Positions 13,407 to 22,684 of a DNA stretch of 64,000 bases are shown here, piece after piece (the stretch's first letter is position 1; each line of letters begins with the position of its first letter). The stretch is from contig NZ_JAUSRH010000005.1 of the NCBI RefSeq assembly GCF_030811715.1, positions 1 through 64,000 of the forward strand. Reading direction: 5' to 3'. The position numbers were made by a program, and so were the translations under genes. The notes below the pieces were generated by a model. The model was not told the DNA's origin. It searched no databases and saw only the letters and a list, made by a program, of their open reading frames with translations. This stretch comes from Sinomonas atrocyanea. GTDB taxonomy: Bacteria; Actinomycetota; Actinomycetes; Actinomycetales; Micrococcaceae.

Positions 13407-14714
13407 CTAGCCTGCCGCGGGGAGTGCTGCGCCCACGGTGGCGGCCTCTGCGGCCCTCCGCCTCTTCATGAGCACCGCGAAGTAGGCCGCCGCACCGGCC
13501 CCGATGACGCCGATCACGGCCGTGACGATGAAGAACAGGCTGTTGGCGCCCGCGACGTCCTTGCCGAACGCTGCGTAGATGGCACCGCTGATCTGCGGGA
13601 TGACGATGTCGGGGAGGTAGCCGACGAAGGAGATGATCCCGATCGCGATGCCGGTCGCGGCGGCGGGCACGCGGCAGTCGTCGAGCAGGGACCAGTAGAC
13701 GCCGCGGATGGCGTAGAGGAACAGGCCCACGGCCACCACGAGCACGTCTGCCACGGCGGTGGATCCGCTGGGGAGAAGGCTCAGGCCGACCAGTCCTGCT
13801 GCCGCGGCGGTCATGGCGACGGCGAGGACGCGGGACTTGCCGAGCCTGTCGGCGAGGTAGCCTCCGCCGAATCCGCCGATCGGGCGCATCCAGAGCATGA
13901 TCACGGTGACGCCGCCGGCGTTGACGGGCGAGACCGCGAGGTTCACGTTGAGGAATCCGGAGAAGTAGTAGTGGGCCCAGAAGAGGGTGTAGCCGCAGAA
14001 GAGGACGATGCTCATGACCCAGACTTCGCGGATCTTGAGGATGCGGCGCACGGCGGCGAACGTGGACTCGACGGGCTCGTCCCGGGTGGCCTTCTCCTTG
14101 GTGTCCCCGTCCGAGAGGACGAAGAAGATCAGCACGGCGATGGCGATGAGGACCGCGCAGTACATGTAGACCACGGCCTGGAAGCCGGCCTTGGAGGACG
14201 CGAAGTCGGGGGTGCCGCCCCCGGCGAAGACGGCGAAGAGTCCCACGGCGCAGCTGGCGAGGATCGCCTCGACCAGCCCTCGTCCGCCGTCCAGGGCGCC
14301 GAAGTACTTGCCCTCCTCGCTCTTGTCGGCCAAGAGGCTCACGGTCTTGAGGATCGCGCTCCAGAACGTGAAGACGGTTGCGAAGCCCCAGGCGAGGTAG
14401 ACGTACAGCAGCATGGACTTGTCCGGGACCTGGGCGTAGAACAGCCCGGTGACGGCGGTGACGGCCAGCGAGAACACGATCAGGTACCGCACCGGGATCC
14501 TGTCGGCCAGCCAGCCGCTGGGGATGTAGCCGATCACAAAGATGATTCCCAGCATCGAGTAGAGGTCGGCGAGCTCGGAGTTGCTCAGGTGGAACACCGT
14601 CAGGATGGTGGCTTCGAAGTTCTGGCGCAGGTAGACCAGGGGGTAGATCGCCCCGGCGGCCAGGATGAGCAAGGCGAGCTGAAAAATCTTCTTCGATCTG
14701 CCGAGCTTAGGCAT
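13407..14714 (-). CDS. MFS transporter of the YqcE/YihN type
   Basis: 435 aa with twelve helices. RGVYWSLLDDCRVPAAATGIA and SFVGYLPDIVIP are the family signature of enterobacterial YqcE/YihN carriers for sugar-acid-like solutes. The start ATG at 14714 overlaps the end of the kinase gene (ATGCCTAA), which implies translational coupling. It is the last gene of a five-gene operon (regulator, FAD-linked dehydrogenase, SDR, kinase, carrier) and presumably imports its substrate. A bidirectional terminator closes the operon at 13355-13383. Confidence 0.88.
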   Translation of the reverse strand: MPKLGRSKKIFQLALLILAAGAIYPLVYLRQNFEATILTVFHLSNSELADLYSMLGIIFVIGYIPSGWLADRIPVRYLIVFSLAVTAVTGLFYAQVPDKSMLLYVYLAWGFATVFTFWSAILKTVSLLADKSEEGKYFGALDGGRGLVEAILASCAVGLFAVFAGGGTPDFASSKAGFQAVVYMYCAVLIAIAVLIFFVLSDGDTKEKATRDEPVESTFAAVRRILKIREVWVMSIVLFCGYTLFWAHYYFSGFLNVNLAVSPVNAGGVTVIMLWMRPIGGFGGGYLADRLGKSRVLAVAMTAAAAGLVGLSLLPSGSTAVADVLVVAVGLFLYAIRGVYWSLLDDCRVPAAATGIAIGIISFVGYLPDIVIPQISGAIYAAFGKDVAGANSLFFIVTAVIGVIGAGAAAYFAVLMKRRRAAEAATVGAALPAAG

Positions 14715-16164
14715 GGGAGATGGCTCCTTTGTCATCTGTGAGGATCTGGTGGATTCTTTCGAGGATGGGGTCCGTCTGACGGGGTATTTCCCCCGCGACG
14801 GCGCAGAGTTCGGCGTAGAGCGCAGCGTTGTGGGGCGTCGGCTCGAACCGGTCGTGGCGCCGCACCATGTGCTCACGGGCTTCGTCGAAGCCGGTATAGA
14901 TGCCGCAGGCCACGGCGGTGCAGATCGCCGCGCCGAGGCCGGCAGCGTTGCGGACGCCGTTCCTGACGACGGGGACGTTGAAGACGTCGGCGAAGATCTG
15001 CGAGGCGAGGTCGCTGTTCGAGCCGCCTCCGGAGAGGACGAGTGTCTCGACGCCGAGGCTCCGCTCCGCGGCCATCGCGTCCATGTTCCGCTTCATGGTG
15101 AAGGCGATGCCTTCGAGCACGGCCCGGTACATGTGGGCGTAACCGTGGCGTTCGTCGAAGCCGATGAACATCCCCTTCTTGAAGGGCTTGTTCGGCGGAG
15201 CGAGCCAGTCGAGGACGCACAGCAGCCCTTCGCTCCCGGCAGGAACGGCCGAGGCCGCGACGTTGAGGTGCTCCTCACTGCTCAGACCGGCCTCTGCCGC
15301 GGCGAGCGCGATCTCCGTTCCGAGCAGGTCACGGAGCCACGAGACGGTCCACATGCCCCGTCTGATGCCGGCGCACTCGTAGATGTAGCGGTACGGCTCG
15401 GATGCGAAGTTCGAGAAGAAGTTCTGCGGCTCGGGGGCGAACTCCTTTCCCATGACCATGCCCGCGATGTACGTGCCGAGCGAGACCATGCCGGTGCCGC
15501 CGTCCCGGAGTCCCGAACCCAGCGCCTCGGTGGCCTTGTCGTTGGCCGTGTGGACAACGGGCAGGCCCTCGGGGATGCCGGTGTGGCTGGAGAAGGCGCT
15601 GTTGACGTATCCGCCGATGTCCCCCGGCATCTGCAGGCGGTAGAGCATGTCGCGCGGCACCTTGAAGGAGTCGAACGTCTCCCGGTCGTCGAACCAGTCC
15701 CAGGTGCGGACGTCCATCGGCCAGGGGCCGATGTAGTTGGCGACGGTGTCCGTCAGCTCGCCGGTGAGGCGTCCCATGAGGTACCCGGAGGCGGTGGTGA
15801 CATAGGCCACCTCCTCGTTGGTGTGCTCGTAGGGCCTCGACAGCCTGTCGTCCATCCAGCTCTGGACGGGCTCGGCGAGGGTGCCGTCGCTGCGGACCAG
15901 GGCCCTGCAGCAGCGGATGCTGCAGAGCCCGACGCCGACGATCTCGGCGGGGTCGCCCGGGAACGCCTTCATCACCCGGGACGCCGCGGCGACCAAGGAC
16001 GTGTAGAGATCGTCATCCGGGTGCTCAGCGATCCCTGATCCGGGCGTGTGCATGGGCGCCAGCGGCTGGCTCGCCTCGCACACGACCTTCCCGTCCGTGT
16101 CGAAGATGGTGGCCTTCGAACTCTGCGATCCCCCGTCGAGTCCGATGATGTACTTGCCGGTCAT
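14707..16164 (-). CDS. ygcE: FGGY-family carbohydrate kinase, YgcE-like
   Basis: 485 aa. The N-terminal phosphate loop IGLDGGSQSSKATIFD and the C-terminal LSGGGSNSDLASQIFADVF are the ATPase-fold motifs of the FGGY family (xylulose, glycerol, ribulose and related kinases). Gene order and length match ygcE of the E. coli ygc cluster. It should phosphorylate the keto product made by the adjacent dehydrogenases, in the cytoplasm. The ATG lies 26 bp after the SDR stop. The substrate is unknown in E. coli as well. Confidence 0.88.
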   Translation of the reverse strand: MTGKYIIGLDGGSQSSKATIFDTDGKVVCEASQPLAPMHTPGSGIAEHPDDDLYTSLVAAASRVMKAFPGDPAEIVGVGLCSIRCCRALVRSDGTLAEPVQSWMDDRLSRPYEHTNEEVAYVTTASGYLMGRLTGELTDTVANYIGPWPMDVRTWDWFDDRETFDSFKVPRDMLYRLQMPGDIGGYVNSAFSSHTGIPEGLPVVHTANDKATEALGSGLRDGGTGMVSLGTYIAGMVMGKEFAPEPQNFFSNFASEPYRYIYECAGIRRGMWTVSWLRDLLGTEIALAAAEAGLSSEEHLNVAASAVPAGSEGLLCVLDWLAPPNKPFKKGMFIGFDERHGYAHMYRAVLEGIAFTMKRNMDAMAAERSLGVETLVLSGGGSNSDLASQIFADVFNVPVVRNGVRNAAGLGAAICTAVACGIYTGFDEAREHMVRRHDRFEPTPHNAALYAELCAVAGEIPRQTDPILERIHQILTDDKGAISHA

Positions 16165-16190
16165 GGTTGGGTCCTAGTCTGCTGGGGCGC

Positions 16191-16979
16191 TCAGCGCACC
16201 AGATAGCCGCCGTCGACGCTGAGGATGTGGCCGTTGACGTAGTCCGAAGCCCTGCTGGCCAGGAACACCGTGGCGCCCATGAGGTCCTGGGTCTGGCCCC
16301 AGCGGTTGGCCGGGATGTGGTCCAGGACCCGCTGGTTGGCTTCCGGGTTGGCCCGGGTGTCCGCCGTCAGCTCGGTGGCGTAATAGCCGGGCGCGATGCC
16401 GTTCACCTGCACGCCGAACTGGGCCAGTTCGTCGCAGTAGGCCTTGGTGAAGCCGGCGATCCCGTGCTTGGTCGCGGCGTAGGCCGGTGACCATTGGCCC
16501 CCGAGGAAGGTGAACACCGAGCAGATGTTGATGATCTTGCCGCTGCGCTGGCGGACCATGTGCTGGGCGCACTCGTGGGCCATCTCGAAGGCAGCCGTAA
16601 GGTTCAGCGCCACCATGGGGTCCCACTGGGACCGGGTGTACTTGAGGACGTCAGGCTCGTTGATGCTCCGGCCGGCACAGTTCACGAGGATGTCGACGCT
16701 GCCGAACTCCTCGACGCACGCGTCGACGACCTTCTTGGGGTTCCCGGCGACGGTGATGTCGGACATCACGTAGGAGTACTTCGAGCCGGTCTCCGCCACC
16801 ATGGCGGCAGTGCGGCCGTCGTCGGGCATGATGCTGGCCGCGAGGACGTTGGCCCCGGCCTTCGCCAGCGCGAGGGTGAAGGCCTGGCCGAGGCCGGTGT
16901 TGCCGCCGGTCACGATGGCGTTCTTGTTCTTCAGGGAGAAGAAGTTCATCTGGAAGTCGACGATGCTCGACTCGGACAT
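16191..16979 (-). CDS. ygcW: SDR-family oxidoreductase, YgcW-like
   Basis: 262 aa. Classical short-chain dehydrogenase: GGNTGLG cofactor loop (about residues 25-31), NCAGRS, catalytic Ser region and YAATK (Tyr-x3-Lys). It resembles gluconate/2-deoxygluconate 5-dehydrogenases and YgcW, and should oxidise a hydroxyl of a sugar acid or polyol with NAD(P). It lies between the FAD-linked dehydrogenase and the kinase in the same operon. ATG start at 16979 with a GGAG-like site. Confidence 0.88.
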   Translation of the reverse strand: MSESSIVDFQMNFFSLKNKNAIVTGGNTGLGQAFTLALAKAGANVLAASIMPDDGRTAAMVAETGSKYSYVMSDITVAGNPKKVVDACVEEFGSVDILVNCAGRSINEPDVLKYTRSQWDPMVALNLTAAFEMAHECAQHMVRQRSGKIINICSVFTFLGGQWSPAYAATKHGIAGFTKAYCDELAQFGVQVNGIAPGYYATELTADTRANPEANQRVLDHIPANRWGQTQDLMGATVFLASRASDYVNGHILSVDGGYLVR

Positions 16980-17074
16980 GCGTGCTCCTGCTGGGTTCCT
17001 GGTGGTTCATGGGGGGCGTGGCCGAGGCGACGGCTCGGCCCCGTGGGGGGCGGGGCCCTGCTCGGGCTCGGCCC

Positions 17075-18517
17075 TCAGAGCGGGAAGATGGTTCCCGGGT
17101 TCATGATGCGGTTCGGGTCGAAGGCGGACTTGAGCGTCTCGAGCATGTGCAGCGAGGATCCGTACTCCTCCGCGAGGAAGTGGGTCCGGTGCTTGCCCAC
17201 GCCGTGGTGGTGGCACATCGACCCGCCGCGCTTGAGGGTCTCCTCGACGATGATGTTCTGGATCGGGTCGTGGTAGACGGTGCGCTCCTCCGTGGGGTCC
17301 ACGTCGATCTTGTAGTAGTAGACGAAGTACATGTTGGTGCCGTTGAGATAGCTGTGGCTCGAGTGGCCGCCGAGGAGCGTGAACTCGGCCGGGACCTCCC
17401 GGCGGATCCGGGCGAGGGCGCTCGTGTAGATGTCGTTGATGACGCTCCAGTTGCCCGAGATCTCGGTGGTGAAGCCATTGTTGAGGGTCTCGCGGATCTC
17501 GACCCTCTCCTCCTCGATCTTGGACACGTCCCAGTTGAGGTGGTTGAACCAGTCCTCGATGAGCGAGTCCGCGACGCGGTCCACCGCGGGGTACTGCGAG
17601 ACGATCTCCTCGATCGCCGCTCCTGTTGCATCGGCCAGCGGCTGGGGGCCCTCGGCCATGAAGATCAGCACGCAGCGGCCGTCGGAGAAGTGCTTGAAGT
17701 GGTAGAGCCCGTCCTCCTGGTCGTAGAGCCGCGCGACGGAGGGCCGGTACCCCTGCGTGACGACCTCCCGGAGGATCTCGAAGCCCGTCTTCATGTCGTC
17801 CAGGAGGTACCCGTAGAAGCGGTTGTTCTCCGGGTAGTAGCGGAAGATCTTCACGCTCACTTCGGTGATGAAGTTCAGGGCCCCCTCGTTCCCGAGGATC
17901 AGGTGGCGGATGTCCGGGCCCGCAGCGCGGCGGGGGACATTCTTGATCCGGCAGATCTCGCCGTTGGCGAAGACGGTCTCGGCGCCGACGAGCATGTCCT
18001 CGATCCCGCCGTAGAGGGTGGAGAACTGCCCGATGGACCGGGTCGCGACGAGTCCGCCGAACTGGGCGATCGGCTTGGACTGAGGCGAGTGGCCCGTGGT
18101 GTAGCCGATCTTGCGGAGCTCGTCTTCGAGGTCCTGGAGGCGCACGCCGCACTGGACGGTGGCCAGCATGTTCTCGGTATCGATGTCGATGATCTCGTTC
18201 ATCAGGGACCCGTCGATGACGACCGAGTCCTCGACGATGGTCTCGAGGCCGCCCTCCGTGGCCGACCCGCCGGTCTTCGGCACCACCGCGATGCTGTAGG
18301 CATTCGCCAGCTTGAGGACCGACGAGACCTCCTCCGGGGTCCGGGGCTTCACGACCGCCGCCGGCAGCGGGAGGGAGTAGATGCCGAAGACGTTCTCCAC
18401 CTTGTAGTAGCGGTCCACGCTGTTCTCGCGGAGGGTCTGCTCGTCCGTGAGGACGCGCTCGCTGCCGAGGATGTCCACGTAGGCGCTGACGATCTCTTCG
18501 CGTGTGAGGTTAGCCAA
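17075..18517 (-). CDS. ygcU: FAD-linked dehydrogenase, YgcU-like
   Basis: 480 aa, against 484 for E. coli YgcU. VAO/GlcD-type flavoprotein: the FAD-binding N-terminal half contains PKTGGSATEGGLET and TGHSPQSKPIAQFGGLVATRS; the C-terminal substrate domain ends MCHHHGVGKHR and DPNRIMNPGTIFPL. Both halves match my recollection of YgcU. It likely oxidises a 2-hydroxy acid or sugar acid. A TTG at 18517 is chosen as start because it aligns with the YgcU N-terminus; a TTG at 18583 would add 22 unrelated residues. It is the first enzyme gene after the leader terminator (18595-18642). Confidence 0.88.
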   Translation of the reverse strand: MANLTREEIVSAYVDILGSERVLTDEQTLRENSVDRYYKVENVFGIYSLPLPAAVVKPRTPEEVSSVLKLANAYSIAVVPKTGGSATEGGLETIVEDSVVIDGSLMNEIIDIDTENMLATVQCGVRLQDLEDELRKIGYTTGHSPQSKPIAQFGGLVATRSIGQFSTLYGGIEDMLVGAETVFANGEICRIKNVPRRAAGPDIRHLILGNEGALNFITEVSVKIFRYYPENNRFYGYLLDDMKTGFEILREVVTQGYRPSVARLYDQEDGLYHFKHFSDGRCVLIFMAEGPQPLADATGAAIEEIVSQYPAVDRVADSLIEDWFNHLNWDVSKIEEERVEIRETLNNGFTTEISGNWSVINDIYTSALARIRREVPAEFTLLGGHSSHSYLNGTNMYFVYYYKIDVDPTEERTVYHDPIQNIIVEETLKRGGSMCHHHGVGKHRTHFLAEEYGSSLHMLETLKSAFDPNRIMNPGTIFPL

Positions 18518-18594
18518 TTCCGATTCTTCCGTTCCTGAGTTGATGGGCTCGAGAACTCCGCGGCGGCTCGAAAAGGTCCACAAGAATTTGGCAC

Positions 18595-18642
18595 AAAAAA
18601 AGAGAACAGCGATCCCCTTGGAATTGGGGGTCGCTGTTCTCT
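18595..18642 (-). terminator. Intrinsic terminator in the ygcU leader, candidate antitermination target
   Basis: On the minus strand the stem agagaacagcgaccccc / ggggatcgctgttctct (one bulge) is followed directly by seven Ts. It lies between the GlpP-like regulator gene and ygcU, upstream of all enzyme genes. GlpP of Bacillus acts at such a leader terminator before glpD, so this is probably the control point of the operon. Confidence 0.85.
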
Positions 18643-18658
18643 AGGTTTCGAGCAACCA

Positions 18659-18678
18659 TTTCGGGACACGTCCCGAAA
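18659..18678. promoter_or_regulatory. Palindrome tttcggga-N4-tcccgaaa ahead of the leader terminator
   Basis: 8-bp perfect arms around cacg, 16 bases upstream (minus strand) of the terminator. It could be an RNA hairpin bound by the GlpP-like protein or a DNA operator. Confidence 0.5.
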
Positions 18679-18745
18679 CTGTATGAAGTTCTGAAGTGTG
18701 ACGACTCTAACACAGCCTTCAAGCGGCTGTACAGAGGTCTCCGGT

Positions 18746-19345
18746 CTACATGAGCCAAACGCCGCGGTTGGACGACGCCACGGCCACAGCCCCCGCGCCG
18801 AGCGCCCCGATGACGTCCTCCTTGTCGCAGACCAGGCCGCCCGCGATGAGCGGAAGGTCCACGTCCTCGCGGAGCCACGAGATGACGCGGGGCATGCATC
18901 CCGGCAGAATTTCGATCGCGTCGGCACCCGAGAGGCCCACCTGCTTGGGCACGTTGTTGTAGCTGAAGGAATCGACGAGGAAGAGCCGATGGATGGCCAT
19001 CAGGCCCGCGGTCTTCGCGGCACGCACAATCGCCGCCTTCGAGCTGAGAATTCCGTCCGCCTGCGTGCTCGCCTTCAGGAAATCGACGACCACCGGCTTG
19101 CTGGAGAAGCCGTCGAGCAGGTCGACGTCGACGAAGACCGTCTTTCCAGAGGCCTTCAGCGTGCCCACGATTCCGCCGATGGACATCACGGACCCGTAGA
19201 GGACGAAGACCACCGGGCAGGGAGCCTTGAGGACCGCTCGGAGTCCATCGTCGTCCTTGACGCTCGCGATGACCGGATGGCGCGACAGGACGGCGTCGAT
19301 CTCGGCTGATTCCTTGGGCGTGCGGCGTGGCGTGGTCAAGGACAT
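18746..19345 (-). CDS. ygcP: GlpP-family antiterminator-like regulator, YgcP-like
   Basis: 199 aa. TIM-barrel-like GlpP fold: PVVFVLYGSVMSIGGIV, VFVDVDLLDGFS, DGILSSKAAIVRAAK, IEILPGCMPRVISW, PLIAGGLVCDKEDVIGALGAGAVAVASS. Bacillus GlpP binds glycerol 3-phosphate and the glpD leader RNA; YgcP occupies the same place in the E. coli cluster. Here it is the promoter-proximal gene, followed by a hairpin and an intrinsic terminator before ygcU. The start at 19345 is set by AGGAG nine bases upstream; an ATG directly touching that site is excluded. Ligand probably a phosphorylated pathway intermediate. Confidence 0.85.
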   Translation of the reverse strand: MSLTTPRRTPKESAEIDAVLSRHPVIASVKDDDGLRAVLKAPCPVVFVLYGSVMSIGGIVGTLKASGKTVFVDVDLLDGFSSKPVVVDFLKASTQADGILSSKAAIVRAAKTAGLMAIHRLFLVDSFSYNNVPKQVGLSGADAIEILPGCMPRVISWLREDVDLPLIAGGLVCDKEDVIGALGAGAVAVASSNRGVWLM

Positions 19346-19522
19346 GGCTTGCATCTCCTGCTGTGAAGCTCTCTTCCCGCGGACGGCAGCACAGACGCGG
19401 TCCTCGAGAAAGGTCGACTAATCCTACCGCCTTGTCCCGTGGTGAAAGGAAGGAGAGCTGAGCTGCCGGCCGTCGTCGTCCGCGGCTCCGTGCTCCGACG
19501 ACACGCCGGACGAGCTCCACCC

Positions 19523-19549
19523 TAGACAGACCGGTCTGTCTACTAATAC
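19523..19549 (+). promoter_or_regulatory. Perfect 20-bp TetR-type palindrome with adjoining -10 element
   Basis: tagacagaccggtctgtcta (19523-19542) is perfectly symmetric, followed by taatact (19544-19550 region) resembling a -10 box facing the two-gene unit at 19625. The ACCGGT-centred symmetry is typical of TetR-family operators. No TetR gene is in the window, so the regulator acts in trans or the site belongs to a larger regulon. Confidence 0.7.
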
Positions 19550-19624
19550 TGTTCCGAAGCACGGGCTACAGAAGCACGGGTACGGCTGAGAAGGCGCCCC
19601 AGAGCGCCGGAATGGAGCAGGGTG

Positions 19625-20290
19625 ATGGGGGAAAATCCGGGAATGCAGCCACTGTCGGATGAGGAGCTTGCGGCGGAAGGCATCACCGCACTGCCGGACA
19701 AGGAAGTGGCGTCCATCCTCGACCTCAACGCCGACCTGAATCTGGGGATCCAGGCCGCTGCCCCCATCGACCTGGGAGTGGCCGCGAACGCGAATGTGGC
19801 CGCACCCATCGATGCTTCCGCGTCGGCCAACGTCCTTTCGGCCGGCTCTACCGCGGCAGGGGTTGCGCATCAGGGAGCGCTGATCGACCAGGGCATCAAT
19901 GCAGACGCGACCGCCAATTCGGTGCAGGACAGCAGCGTCGGGCACGCGGCTGGGACCGGCACCACCGACGGGTCGACAGCCTCTTCCCCTGCGCCCAGCG
20001 ACGGGACCACGGGCGGTGCCACGACGACGACCGATCCGACCGGAGCCAACGGCAGCCTGCTGGACGTCAACGTGAACCTCGACGCCAATGCCGGCATCGC
20101 TGCCCCAATCAACGGTGCAGCAGCCGCAAATGCGAACGTCGCCGCACCCATCAACGCAGGTGTGGCGGCCAACATCGGGACGGTGGACAGCACGTCCGTC
20201 GCCGATGCCCAGCAGGAAGCGGTCATCAGCCAGCACGTGGACGGGGCTGCGACAGCAAGCTCTGACCAGCACTCGAACCTGCAGCAGTAG
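19625..20290 (+). CDS. Ala/Asn-rich two-repeat protein with RiPP-like leader
   Basis: 221 aa, no Cys and no signal peptide. Residues 1-30 are acidic (QPLSDEELAAEGITALPDKE) and resemble the leader of modified peptides. Residues 31-100 and 145-213 are two copies of one repeat built on LDxNxxL, AAPI(D/N), AANANVAAPI(D/N)A and a closing AxQxAxIxQ segment, joined by a Gly/Thr/Ser/Asp linker (105-143). The ATG at 19625 is seven bases after GGAG. It is followed after 6 bp by a PqqD-M50 membrane protease, so it is likely that protein's substrate or partner. I do not recognise the family. Confidence 0.75.
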   Translation: MGENPGMQPLSDEELAAEGITALPDKEVASILDLNADLNLGIQAAAPIDLGVAANANVAAPIDASASANVLSAGSTAAGVAHQGALIDQGINADATANSVQDSSVGHAAGTGTTDGSTASSPAPSDGTTGGATTTTDPTGANGSLLDVNVNLDANAGIAAPINGAAAANANVAAPINAGVAANIGTVDSTSVADAQQEAVISQHVDGAATASSDQHSNLQQ

Positions 20291-20296
20291 GCTCCT

Positions 20297-22684
20297 GTGA
20301 CGGTGCCTCCGGGACGTGCGCCCGCGCCTGCGGCCCCGGCGTCCTCGGCTCCGGACATCGGCGGCCATGTCCCGGCACGTGCCGAGGGTGTGGAGCTGAT
20401 CGGTGAGCTGAAGGGCTCCGGCTACCGGGACGCACCGGCTCTCGTGCGCCGCGCGGACGGCCAGACCCTGCAGCTGACGCCGCTGCTCTATTCGGTCCTC
20501 TCCGCTGTGGACGGAACAAGCAGCATCTCGGAGATCGCGGGGCGCGTGAGCCAGGGCTCCGGCCGCCTGATCACCGCAGAGAACGTCCGCACGCTCATCG
20601 ACTCGAAGCTGCTCCCCCTGGGACTGCTCGCGCGGGCCGACGGTTCCCAGCCGGAGGCCCGCCGGTCGAACCCGCTGCTGAGCCTGCGCTTCCGCTACAC
20701 GGTCACCGATGAAGAGAAGACGCGGCGCCTGACGGCGCCGTTCGCGGCCCTCTTCCGCCCCTGGGTTGTGGTCCCGCTCGTAGCAGCCTTCCTGGTCGTG
20801 AGCTGGTGGGTACTGGCGGAGAAGGGGCTCGCCTCCGCCACCTATCAGGCGTTCGACAGCCCGGGCCTGTTGCTGCTCGTCGTCGCCGTGACGGTCTTCT
20901 CCGCGGGATTCCACGAATTCGGCCACGCCGCTGCCGCACGCTACGGCGGCGCCACACCGGGCGCCATGGGAGCCGGCCTCTACCTCTTCTGGCCCGCCTT
21001 CTACACCGACGTGACCGACTCGTACCGCCTCGGACGTGGCGGGCGCGTCCGCACGGATCTGGGCGGCCTGTACTTCAACGCCATCGTGACAGTGCTCATC
21101 GCCGGGATCTGGTGGGCGACGCGGTACGACGCCCTCCTCCTCGTCGTCCTGACCCAGATCCTGCAGATGATCCGCCAGCTCACACCTCTCGTGCGCTTCG
21201 ATGGCTACCACGTGCTCGCAGACGTCACGGGCGTCCCCGACCTGTACCACCGGATCCGTCCTACGCTGCTGGGCCTGCTGCCGTGGCGCTGGGGACATCC
21301 CGAGACGAAGGCGCTGAAGCCGTGGGCGCGCGCGGTCGTCACCCTCTGGGTCCTCATCGTGGTTCCCATCCTGCTCGGCAGCCTCGCGCTGATGGTCATC
21401 ACGCTCCCGCGCGTCCTCGCGACCGCCTGGACCAGCACGGTCCGCCGCGAGGACAGCCTTGCTGCCGCCCTCGGCCAAGGCGATTATCTGGGCGCAGGCG
21501 CGCAGGGCGTCATGATCCTCGCCGCCGCCCTCCCCGTCCTCGGAATGGCCCTGATCCTCTTCCGGATGGTGACCCGCGGGGCGCGCAACATGTGGCAGAA
21601 GACGCGCGGCCGTCCGGGCCGCCGCGCAGCCTCCCTGGTCGCCGGGATCGCCGTCGCGGCGCTCCTAGCCTCCATCTGGTGGCCCAGCGGATCGACCTAC
21701 CGCCCCATCCAGCCATACGAGCGCGGCACCGTCGCGGATGCCCTGGCCGCGCGGGCTCCCGTCACGGATCGCCTTGTGCAAGGACAGGAGGGGCGGGTCG
21801 CCGCGATCTGGCCGCAAGGGGCAGCCAAGCCGACGGCGGACAAGCCCCAGCTGGCGATGGTCCTCGTACCCCGCACCGGCCAGGCCCCCGCGCCGGGGAA
21901 CGCCCACGGCGCGGCACCGGCCCCGGCACCGGCTTGGGTCTTCCCCTTCAGCAAACCGAGCTCCCCAGGCGATGGTGGAAATCAGGCCCTGGCCGTCACC
22001 ACCAAGGACGGATCAGTTGTCTACGACGTCGCGTTCGCGATGGTCTGGGTCCAAGACGGCTCCGCGCTCAACGTGAACGAGGCAGACGCGTTCGCCAGCT
22101 GCCGGGACTGCGCCGCCGTGGCTGTCGCATTCCAAGTGGTGCTCGTCGTCGGCCAGGTCCACACTGTGGTCCCGCAGAATCTGGCCGTCGCCGCCAACTA
22201 CAACTGCACCCAGTGCCTCGCCTACGCGGTGGCCAACCAGCTCGTCCTGACCCTCGACGGGCCCCTGAGCCCCGCCGGAATGGCCCAACTCTCCAAGCTG
22301 TGGGACGACATCGGCTCGTTCCAGGCCACCATCCAGGATCAGCCGCTGACGCAGATCCAGGCCCGCCTGGACCAATACGCGGCACAGATCCGGCAGATCA
22401 TCCAGCAGGACCCGTCCGCGACCCACCAGGCGCCGAGCGCCACCCCTTCTGCCCGGGAAACAGCCGGCGCAACACCTAGCGCCCCGCTGCCAACCGCCCC
22501 GGCGGCACCCGGGGCCACCGCGCCAGACACCACCACGGCACCCTCGATGTCAGGGGAAGGAGCATCCGCGCCGCCTGGAACCGAAGCCCCCGCCCAGACC
22601 ACCGCTGCCGACCCCACCGACGCCCCGCAGCCCGCCGATCCCGCCGCAACGCCCGTCCCGGCACAGACCACTCCCGCAAGCTGA
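20297..22684 (+). CDS. PqqD-like domain fused to M50-family membrane zinc protease
   Basis: 795 aa. Residues about 35-115 look like a PqqD/RRE winged helix (LQLTPLLYSVLSAVDGTSS, ISEIAGRVS). Membrane helices begin near 155. The zinc motif HEFGH is at 206-210 and the third-ligand region RFDGYH at 300-305, as in YydH/M50B peptide zinc metalloproteases. After the last helix (about 455-470) comes an extracytoplasmic domain with two C-x2-C pairs (CRDC, CTQC), then an Ala/Pro/Thr-rich tail of about 100 residues. The GTG start lies 6 bp after the upstream stop, with a weak ribosome site, which suggests coupling. Inferred role: recognises the leader of the upstream protein and cleaves or exports it. 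Confidence 0.85.
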   Translation: MTVPPGRAPAPAAPASSAPDIGGHVPARAEGVELIGELKGSGYRDAPALVRRADGQTLQLTPLLYSVLSAVDGTSSISEIAGRVSQGSGRLITAENVRTLIDSKLLPLGLLARADGSQPEARRSNPLLSLRFRYTVTDEEKTRRLTAPFAALFRPWVVVPLVAAFLVVSWWVLAEKGLASATYQAFDSPGLLLLVVAVTVFSAGFHEFGHAAAARYGGATPGAMGAGLYLFWPAFYTDVTDSYRLGRGGRVRTDLGGLYFNAIVTVLIAGIWWATRYDALLLVVLTQILQMIRQLTPLVRFDGYHVLADVTGVPDLYHRIRPTLLGLLPWRWGHPETKALKPWARAVVTLWVLIVVPILLGSLALMVITLPRVLATAWTSTVRREDSLAAALGQGDYLGAGAQGVMILAAALPVLGMALILFRMVTRGARNMWQKTRGRPGRRAASLVAGIAVAALLASIWWPSGSTYRPIQPYERGTVADALAARAPVTDRLVQGQEGRVAAIWPQGAAKPTADKPQLAMVLVPRTGQAPAPGNAHGAAPAPAPAWVFPFSKPSSPGDGGNQALAVTTKDGSVVYDVAFAMVWVQDGSALNVNEADAFASCRDCAAVAVAFQVVLVVGQVHTVVPQNLAVAANYNCTQCLAYAVANQLVLTLDGPLSPAGMAQLSKLWDDIGSFQATIQDQPLTQIQARLDQYAAQIRQIIQQDPSATHQAPSATPSARETAGATPSAPLPTAPAAPGATAPDTTTAPSMSGEGASAPPGTEAPAQTTAADPTDAPQPADPAATPVPAQTTPAS

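Follow-up and report, generated by a model that had tools for sequence, protein, structure and literature searches.

What does a membrane protease of the kind known from small modified peptides do beside a gene for a large repeat protein? The question is raised by two adjacent genes of the actinobacterium Sinomonas atrocyanea, found in a window of 64,000 nucleotides (the whole stretch analysed: assembly GCF_030811715.1, contig NZ_JAUSRH010000005.1, positions 1 to 64,000), which sits on contig 5 of a 4.23-Mb genome. The first gene (19625..20290; forward strand, like all the coding features given below) encodes a substrate protein of 221 residues with two repeats, for which an ATG start is preferred, a GTG at 19622 being also possible. 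The second (20297..22684), which follows after 6 bp, encodes a membrane protease of 795 residues that joins a domain similar to the recognition element (RRE) of ribosomally synthesized and post-translationally modified peptides (RiPPs), an M50-type protease and a predicted outer domain with two CxxC pairs. In a first-pass annotation, made by a model from the DNA letters, the two genes with their positions, the leader, the two repeats, the Gly/Thr-rich linker, the 6-bp gap, the HEFGH protease and the cysteine pairs had been described, and all of these have been confirmed. Its core reading, a leader, an RRE and an M50 protease with no adjacent modifying enzyme, also stands after a comparison of the neighbourhoods of 28 loci (flanks of at most 6 kb, and much less in several). 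Neither of the two outcomes that the annotation had named as refuting it was observed: the N-terminal domain is RRE-like by predicted fold, if weakly by profile, and the protease mostly has the substrate beside it. The interpretation as a whole is partly supported. Here RRE-M50 proteases go together with repeat proteins whose residues follow an amyloid-like pattern and with an outer domain resembling the substrate. This pairing suggests an undescribed way to build an extracellular protein coat or fibre.

The cassette of RRE-M50 protease and substrate is real and recurs. A scan of genome contigs gave 27 loci, all actinobacterial and close relatives by design, and in 25 of them one or more complete substrate genes lie just upstream of the protease gene: a complete two-repeat gene directly upstream in 24 loci and three short precursors in L027 (L and G numbers are our labels for loci and genomes). 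In the other two only the tail of the second repeat is seen: L022 lies at a contig end, and in L002 the similarity breaks off inside the repeat. The co-occurrence, for which the first-pass annotation had suggested a neighbourhood search, was also followed in class, genus and family samples of genomes chosen independently of the cassette. Seven of 25 genomes of the class match at 1e-10, six strongly and one (G031) through a distant M50 protein; when the sample is 36 class genomes, which include those 25 and the window's own, eight match at 1e-20, with nine protease loci. Substrates stand beside the protease in eight of these nine (G000, G015, G021, G026, G034, twice in G046, and G047), and at the ninth, in G023, the contig stops just upstream of the protease. 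The CxxC domain is fused or encoded alongside in eight of the nine loci as well, and was not seen at contig 163 of G046. In four of the five other genomes of the genus sample the protease is shorter (41-42% identity) and is accompanied by two to five short precursors. No relative was found on viral contigs scanned with two peptide patterns. Identity as a defence system is rejected, PADLOC having given no match for one.

The substrate starts with an acidic leader (residues 1-31, 19625..19717) carrying a conserved E-L ... LPDKEVxS motif. It continues with repeat 1 (residues 33-107, 19721..19945, including a beta-unit at 60-107), a linker rich in Gly, Thr and Ser (19946..20062), the length and sequence of which differ strongly between relatives, and repeat 2 (residues 147-221, 20063..20287, including a beta-unit at 174-221). 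hhalign matches the two repeats at E 4e-25, with 44% identity in 75 aligned columns. In an alignment of 28 substrates (25 two-repeat forms and the three short ones of L027), E14, L15, L23, P24 and S30 of the leader and N55, N57, P61, A64, N69, S72, Q83 and Q89 of the core are invariant. A similar motif is present in the short precursors of relatives, the leader type being common to long and short substrates.

Beyond the leader, conservation alternates from one residue to the next. In 50 units of the two-repeat type no odd column between 16 and 48 is as conserved as any even one (p 5e-7), and the mean entropies are 0.53 for even and 2.11 for odd columns; the pattern, SxAxAxAxQxxxIxQxIx and then GxAxAxAxQxSxIxQ, has a period of 18 residues, and Lys and Arg are absent from all these units. 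In the short precursors, N, A, N, S/T, S, A, A, A and Q stand at constant spacing in 14 cores, which are only those matching one regular expression, other precursors being left out; here the entropies in columns 16-30 are 0.59 and 2.54 (p 6.5e-4). Such an alternation is what would be expected of beta-strands with one face made of small and amide residues. Curlin-type repeats likewise have one face of small and amide residues. The repeat protein matches no Pfam family at E up to 10, and so no curlin repeat, and it has no match among PDB sequences; neither it nor the short precursors scanned gave a meaningful Pfam or NCBIfam match. Furthermore, no Sec-type signal was seen on the substrate.

In the protease, an RRE/PqqD-like winged helix is predicted at about residues 29-112 (20381..20632). 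In the AlphaFold model, built from 28 sequences, residues 33-105 form three strands followed by three helices, with a mean predicted local distance difference test score (pLDDT) of 69-93 per ten residues. The model as a whole has a mean pLDDT of 64.6. Confidence is good in the RRE-like region and over most of the membrane part, with dips below 50 at residues 123-136 and 218-237. The PqqD model PF05402 matches four of 28 protease homologues (best E 0.0064), the window protein not among them, and the domain has no sequence relative in the PDB. The PqqD/RRE-like N-terminus claimed at first pass is therefore to be kept in a qualified form: the predicted fold supports an RRE-like domain, and the profile evidence does so weakly. 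A Foldseek search with the whole protease model listed TruD and GdmN, which we take to be a member of PF02543, with probabilities of 0.94-0.97 but E values of 0.14-0.83; nothing was found at E 0.001, and the aligned ranges of the two were not reported. Fused RREs have been reported in PF02543 carbamoyltransferases (PMC12710340). No convincing solved relative was found for the RRE domain, the repeat protein, the C-terminal domain or the whole protease.

The zinc motif HEFGH (residues 206-210, 20912..20926) is conserved in 28 of 30 aligned proteases, the exceptions being HEIGH in L030 and HEFGR in L002. R300, D302, G303 and Y304 are invariant in the same alignment, where RxDGY occurs in all; in the window the motif reads RFDGY (21194..21208), and its Asp is presumably the third zinc ligand of the M50 centre. 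The Pfam M50 model scores below its own cut-off on the protease. The NCBIfam model daptide_HExxH (NF041824) aligns over residues 45-318 at 9.4e-30, with 104 bits against a cut-off of 300, and the epipeptide model NF058609 gives 35 bits against 225. The protease is a single copy in its own genome, where the daptide-protease model finds one more, weak match elsewhere (1.2e-4); its nearest relative is the protease of L002, from Sinomonas susongensis (85% over 468 columns of the N-terminal 470 residues, 78% in a separate comparison). The membrane part (residues 153-461, 20753..21679) has six or seven segments. Hydropathy and charge would place the N-terminus inside and the C-terminus with the CxxC domain outside if residues 257-300 are counted as two segments, as the predicted helices suggest.

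The predicted outer domain (about residues 547-705, 21935..22411) contains cysteine pairs at 602/605 and 637/640 and precedes a tail rich in Pro, Ala and Thr that is predicted to be disordered (22412..22681). AlphaFold gives it a mixed structure, with strands at 576-586, 589-593, 607-618 and 641-653 and helices at 659-704; residues 590-645 lie largely below 50 pLDDT, and the tail is again disordered. The cysteine-paired domain is present as the first-pass annotation had said; what had been missed is that it resembles the substrate and is a separate protein in relatives. The in-register likeness is weak in the first CxxC unit (residues 591-614, 22067..22138) and strong in the second (residues 625-648, 22169..22240; VPQNLAVAANYNCTQCLAYAVANQ). 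When a first matrix was made from 52 units (50 from long substrates, two from L027), its best window fell at a CxxC, in register with Ser/Thr-x-x-Ser, in all 27 domain-bearing proteases: at the second CxxC in 25 and at the first in two (L009, L012). Just 14 of these 27 scores lie above all 100 shuffles of the same protein, and that of L026 is at the shuffle mean. A second matrix, made from the 14 short cores alone, scores 28.1 bits at residue 625 of the window protease; on 257 other open reading frames, a control that excluded substrates, M50 proteases and frames with a CxxC pattern and in which some loci overlap, the mean was -5.3 (s.d. 4.5) and the maximum 12.5. The best window of this matrix stands at a CxxC in register in all 30 fused proteases and in nine of ten separate proteins, and 22 fused and four separate CxxC proteins score above 12.5; the fused rows are related and thus not independent observations. 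None of 2000 column-permuted matrices reached the window score, nor did any when parity was preserved or when the matrix came from the 8 divergent cores alone. The count was 0-12 of 2000 for L046, L047 and L049 and 7-43 for L045, L050 and L027; L029 failed (87-461). What the matrices show is an in-register resemblance of the CxxC domain to the substrate; homology of the two is put forward as no more than likely.

The relation between the two parts is also visible in how the genes are arranged. In the split relatives, the protease is accompanied by one to five short precursors with the same leader type and one beta-unit each, and in ten of 12 split loci the CxxC domain is a separate protein (L027, L029, L045, L046, L047, L048, L049, L050, L051 and L065), most of these proteins showing by eye a signal-type N-terminus, which speaks for an outer location of the domain. 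In a tree of 42 proteases (30 fused and 12 split, the precursors of L045, if any, lying beyond the contig end), the 30 fused forms are on one side of a single branch with support 100/100. The CxxC fusion amounts to one change on this tree, where shuffled labels need 10.6 changes on average. Moreover, the substrate has two repeats in all 28 fused forms with a whole substrate gene (the window, 24 loci, L041, L042 and L067), and all split forms with the upstream region available carry short substrates. Nothing else points as strongly to joint action of substrate and CxxC domain as this coupled change. The very large repeat substrate named in the first-pass annotation is present in the window but is, by comparison with the more divergent relatives and their short single-unit precursors, a derived form.

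At L002 (5824-8388) the substrate gene lacks the leader and the first repeat, and the protease is the one with HEFGR. The substrate breaks inside repeat 2, beside an aminotransferase-like stretch. The double loss would fit joint decay; the join may be an assembly fault, and a single case proves little. Other variants were seen in passing. The protease relative at 4618-6903 of L050 (the same place as L037) continues into a stretch resembling a MinD/ParA-like ATPase (GGVGKTT), named by eye, in one frame of 761 residues. Two precursors of a Streptomyces plasmid (L030, 3515-3742 and 5413-5673) have an LLPERAVLS leader, of the same type, and Gly-rich, Cys-containing cores, which are different. Among plasmid matches, H4, H6, H7 and H9-H13 are proteobacterial proteins that hit the M50 region, several of them annotated as HlyD-type or biotin/lipoyl-binding, and these are possibly M50-HlyD fusions, an exporter-like relative.

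The pairing, the common leader type, the duplication, the split and fused architecture, the register likeness and the alternation are all established at the level of sequence; leader binding, cleavage, export, disulfides, and a polymer with its function are what we infer. The reading that we prefer, and that in our judgement is equally apt to be right or wrong, is a cassette for leader-guided secretion and surface assembly of a beta-rich protein, seeded or anchored by a substrate-like domain. Within the cytoplasm, the protease would use its RRE domain to bind the leader (EL...LPDKEVxS) of the repeat protein, and the M50 centre would remove it; the repeat part would reach the cell surface through the protease itself or by another route. 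Outside, the beta-units with alternating residues would fold or stack into a beta-rich polymer, for which the CxxC domain, resembling the substrate unit and stapled by disulfides, would act as seed or anchor, in the way in which CsgB serves CsgA or long chaplins serve short ones. In relatives the same parts would work as separate pieces, namely short single-unit precursors, protease and CxxC protein. The polymer is suggested by the residue pattern, the multiple subunits and the substrate-like outer domain. That the cassette represents a previously undescribed class of actinobacterial extracellular polymers, in which an RRE-M50 protease recognises, trims and releases the subunits and displays, as a fused part or through a partner, a disulfide-stapled copy that seeds the polymer where it leaves the cell, is proposed tentatively and with rather more doubt than belief. 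If true, leader guidance in the style of RiPPs would serve the assembly of a structural protein and not a natural product, leader-guided peptide maturation would be joined to functional amyloids, and a compact Gram-positive counterpart of curli assembly would be at hand. The form in the window is easily testable, because it consists of two genes only.

Known surface proteins offer partial parallels to this assembly reading. With the curli protein CsgA the window substrate shares alternating small residues and regular Gln, Ser and Asn positions. CsgB, which seeds or anchors CsgA, is its minor, substrate-like counterpart at the cell surface, a role for which the outer domain would be a candidate. 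In contrast to curli, the repeat lacks a Pfam or PDB-sequence match and a visible Sec-type signal, the host is Gram-positive, and amyloid is only proposed. The chaplins and rodlins of Streptomyces are similar as small secreted beta-rich surface proteins; in the part of PMC7766987 available, long chaplins are described as two-domain and anchored, short ones as one-domain, and disulfides as important, whereas leader guidance by an RRE-M50 protease is not met with there and the repeat protein has no Pfam match.

Several results weigh against the assembly reading. Its weakest step is the passage of a chain of about 20 kDa through the membrane, and we know of no M50 protease that exports a chain of this size. 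The flanks of the 28 loci contain no conserved transporter, and in a daptide cluster separate proteins, TfDapT1T2, are given the export role (PMC12338566). Cleavage, export and fibre are reached by inference. The topology depends on whether residues 257-300 make up two segments; the hydropathy scan flags 607-618, inside the CxxC domain, as hydrophobic. The AlphaFold model of the repeat protein has a mean pLDDT of 53 and two long low-confidence strands, and Foldseek gave no match for it. As to the CxxC domain, 14 of 40 score no higher than the best unrelated reading frame, the L029 protein is out of register, and no CxxC gene was seen in the stretch examined at the split loci L066 and L030. hhalign does not support homology between repeats and CxxC domain, its profile comparison showing no significant similarity (probability 0.5%); the best alignment of repeat 1 nevertheless had the same register. 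Because hhalign was not significant, the likeness could be a convergence of beta-strand patterns. Finally, the cassette is patchy: 28 of the 36 class genomes lack a match, and so do all eight further genomes in the family sample, one of which belongs to the same genus.

An antimicrobial or signalling peptide system, in which repeat peptides directed at other cells would be matured and exported by the protease, with the CxxC domain as immunity factor or chaperone, is to be considered, since the protease aligns to the maturation proteases of daptides and epipeptides (YydH/LiaK). Several variable short precursors per locus are found, as in bacteriocin clusters; BTAD-type activators stand beside L046 and L050 (Pfam), with similar-looking proteins at L047-L049; and EpeP is thought to cleave and export EpeX (PMC10885120, PMC7614699). 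We regard such a system as unlikely here: the compared flanks hold no conserved immunity or transporter gene, the long units are without Lys and Arg, two-unit substrates of about 210-335 residues with long linkers better suit a structural role, and the outer domain resembles the substrate itself. Daptide DapP (NF041824) also combines an RRE with an M50-type protease, and its predicted task is to take the leader off precursors whose genes lie next to its own, while separate proteins are in charge of export (PMC10036551, PMC12338566). In contrast, the window cassette has no conserved oxidative decarboxylase, aminotransferase or methyltransferase (DapB, DapC, DapD and DapM are not conserved partners in the 28 loci), its protease adds the outer CxxC domain, and its substrates are of another type. 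Daptide membership is rejected, the score being under the cut-off and the cluster genes missing. The epipeptide protease EpeP/YydH/LiaK (NF058609) is similar as an M50 membrane protease thought to cleave and export its own peptide (PMC10885120, PMC7614699). It differs in that a conserved radical-SAM epimerase and an EpeAB-type immunity gene are absent from the window cassette, the substrate of which is a large repeat protein, and epipeptide membership is rejected on the same two grounds. The roles of daptide proteases and EpeP in leader cleavage and export may by analogy apply to the window protease.

A conventional RiPP, in which the core is first modified by an enzyme from a gene elsewhere and the M50 protease then takes off the leader, would share the logic of leader, RRE and leader protease, and the RRE fold is supported. 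It is nonetheless a distinctly improbable explanation: no modifying enzyme is conserved in the flanks of the 28 loci, the sole mixed cluster of neighbours, eight apparent short-chain dehydrogenases, varies in side, and no common modification motif was noticed in a core rich in Ala, Asp, Gln, Ser and Ile. Very little speaks for a stress sensor of the regulated intramembrane proteolysis type, where the protease would cut the repeat protein and so release a signal; M50 proteases often have this function, but the substrate has no Pfam domain, an RRE-like domain is part of the protease, and relatives have as substrates short leader peptides in several copies. The cassette has a protease half that is of a known kind, and a substrate and an outer domain that match no family searched. 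As the first-pass annotation had supposed, no described system with this pairing was met in the portion of the open PMC literature seen, which does not prove that the pairing is unpublished.

The genes around the cassette vary. No third gene is general to the 28 loci; the largest clusters of neighbours comprise eight loci and are nearly all confined to Geodermatophilaceae, and the mixed one with the dehydrogenases, which includes the window, is upstream in some loci and downstream in others. The BTAD-type activators suggest developmental or growth-phase control of the split cassettes. In the window, the gene pair is flanked by a divergent operon on one side and by opposite-strand genes on the other, and all the neighbours scanned are on the other strand (an FGGY kinase, a short-chain dehydrogenase, two FAD oxidases, an FMO-like monooxygenase and a G3P antiterminator). 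The divergent operon (14707-19354), with an antiterminator-type regulator, an FAD oxidase, a short-chain dehydrogenase and an FGGY kinase, is probably for the use of a sugar or polyol.

Between the divergent operons lies a perfect palindrome of 20 bp, TAGACAGACCGGTCTGTCTA (19523..19542), a TetR-type operator as had been recognised at first pass; none would be expected at up to 3 mismatches (100 shuffles). Its membership of the conserved unit is rejected, since in 67 loci scanned copies with up to 5 mismatches occur only in the window's own genome and in none of the 58 loci from other genomes; it is one of a set of operators spread over the genome, with TetR genes at other places, and the divergent operon may be what it controls. 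The genome holds five such sites at up to 2 mismatches, and three of the four others, each with 2 mismatches, are at the start of TetR-like genes (L053, L054 and L055) that are similar to one another, TetR_N being confirmed by Pfam for L053 and L055. By eye, two of these three genes adjoin sigma-factor-like genes.

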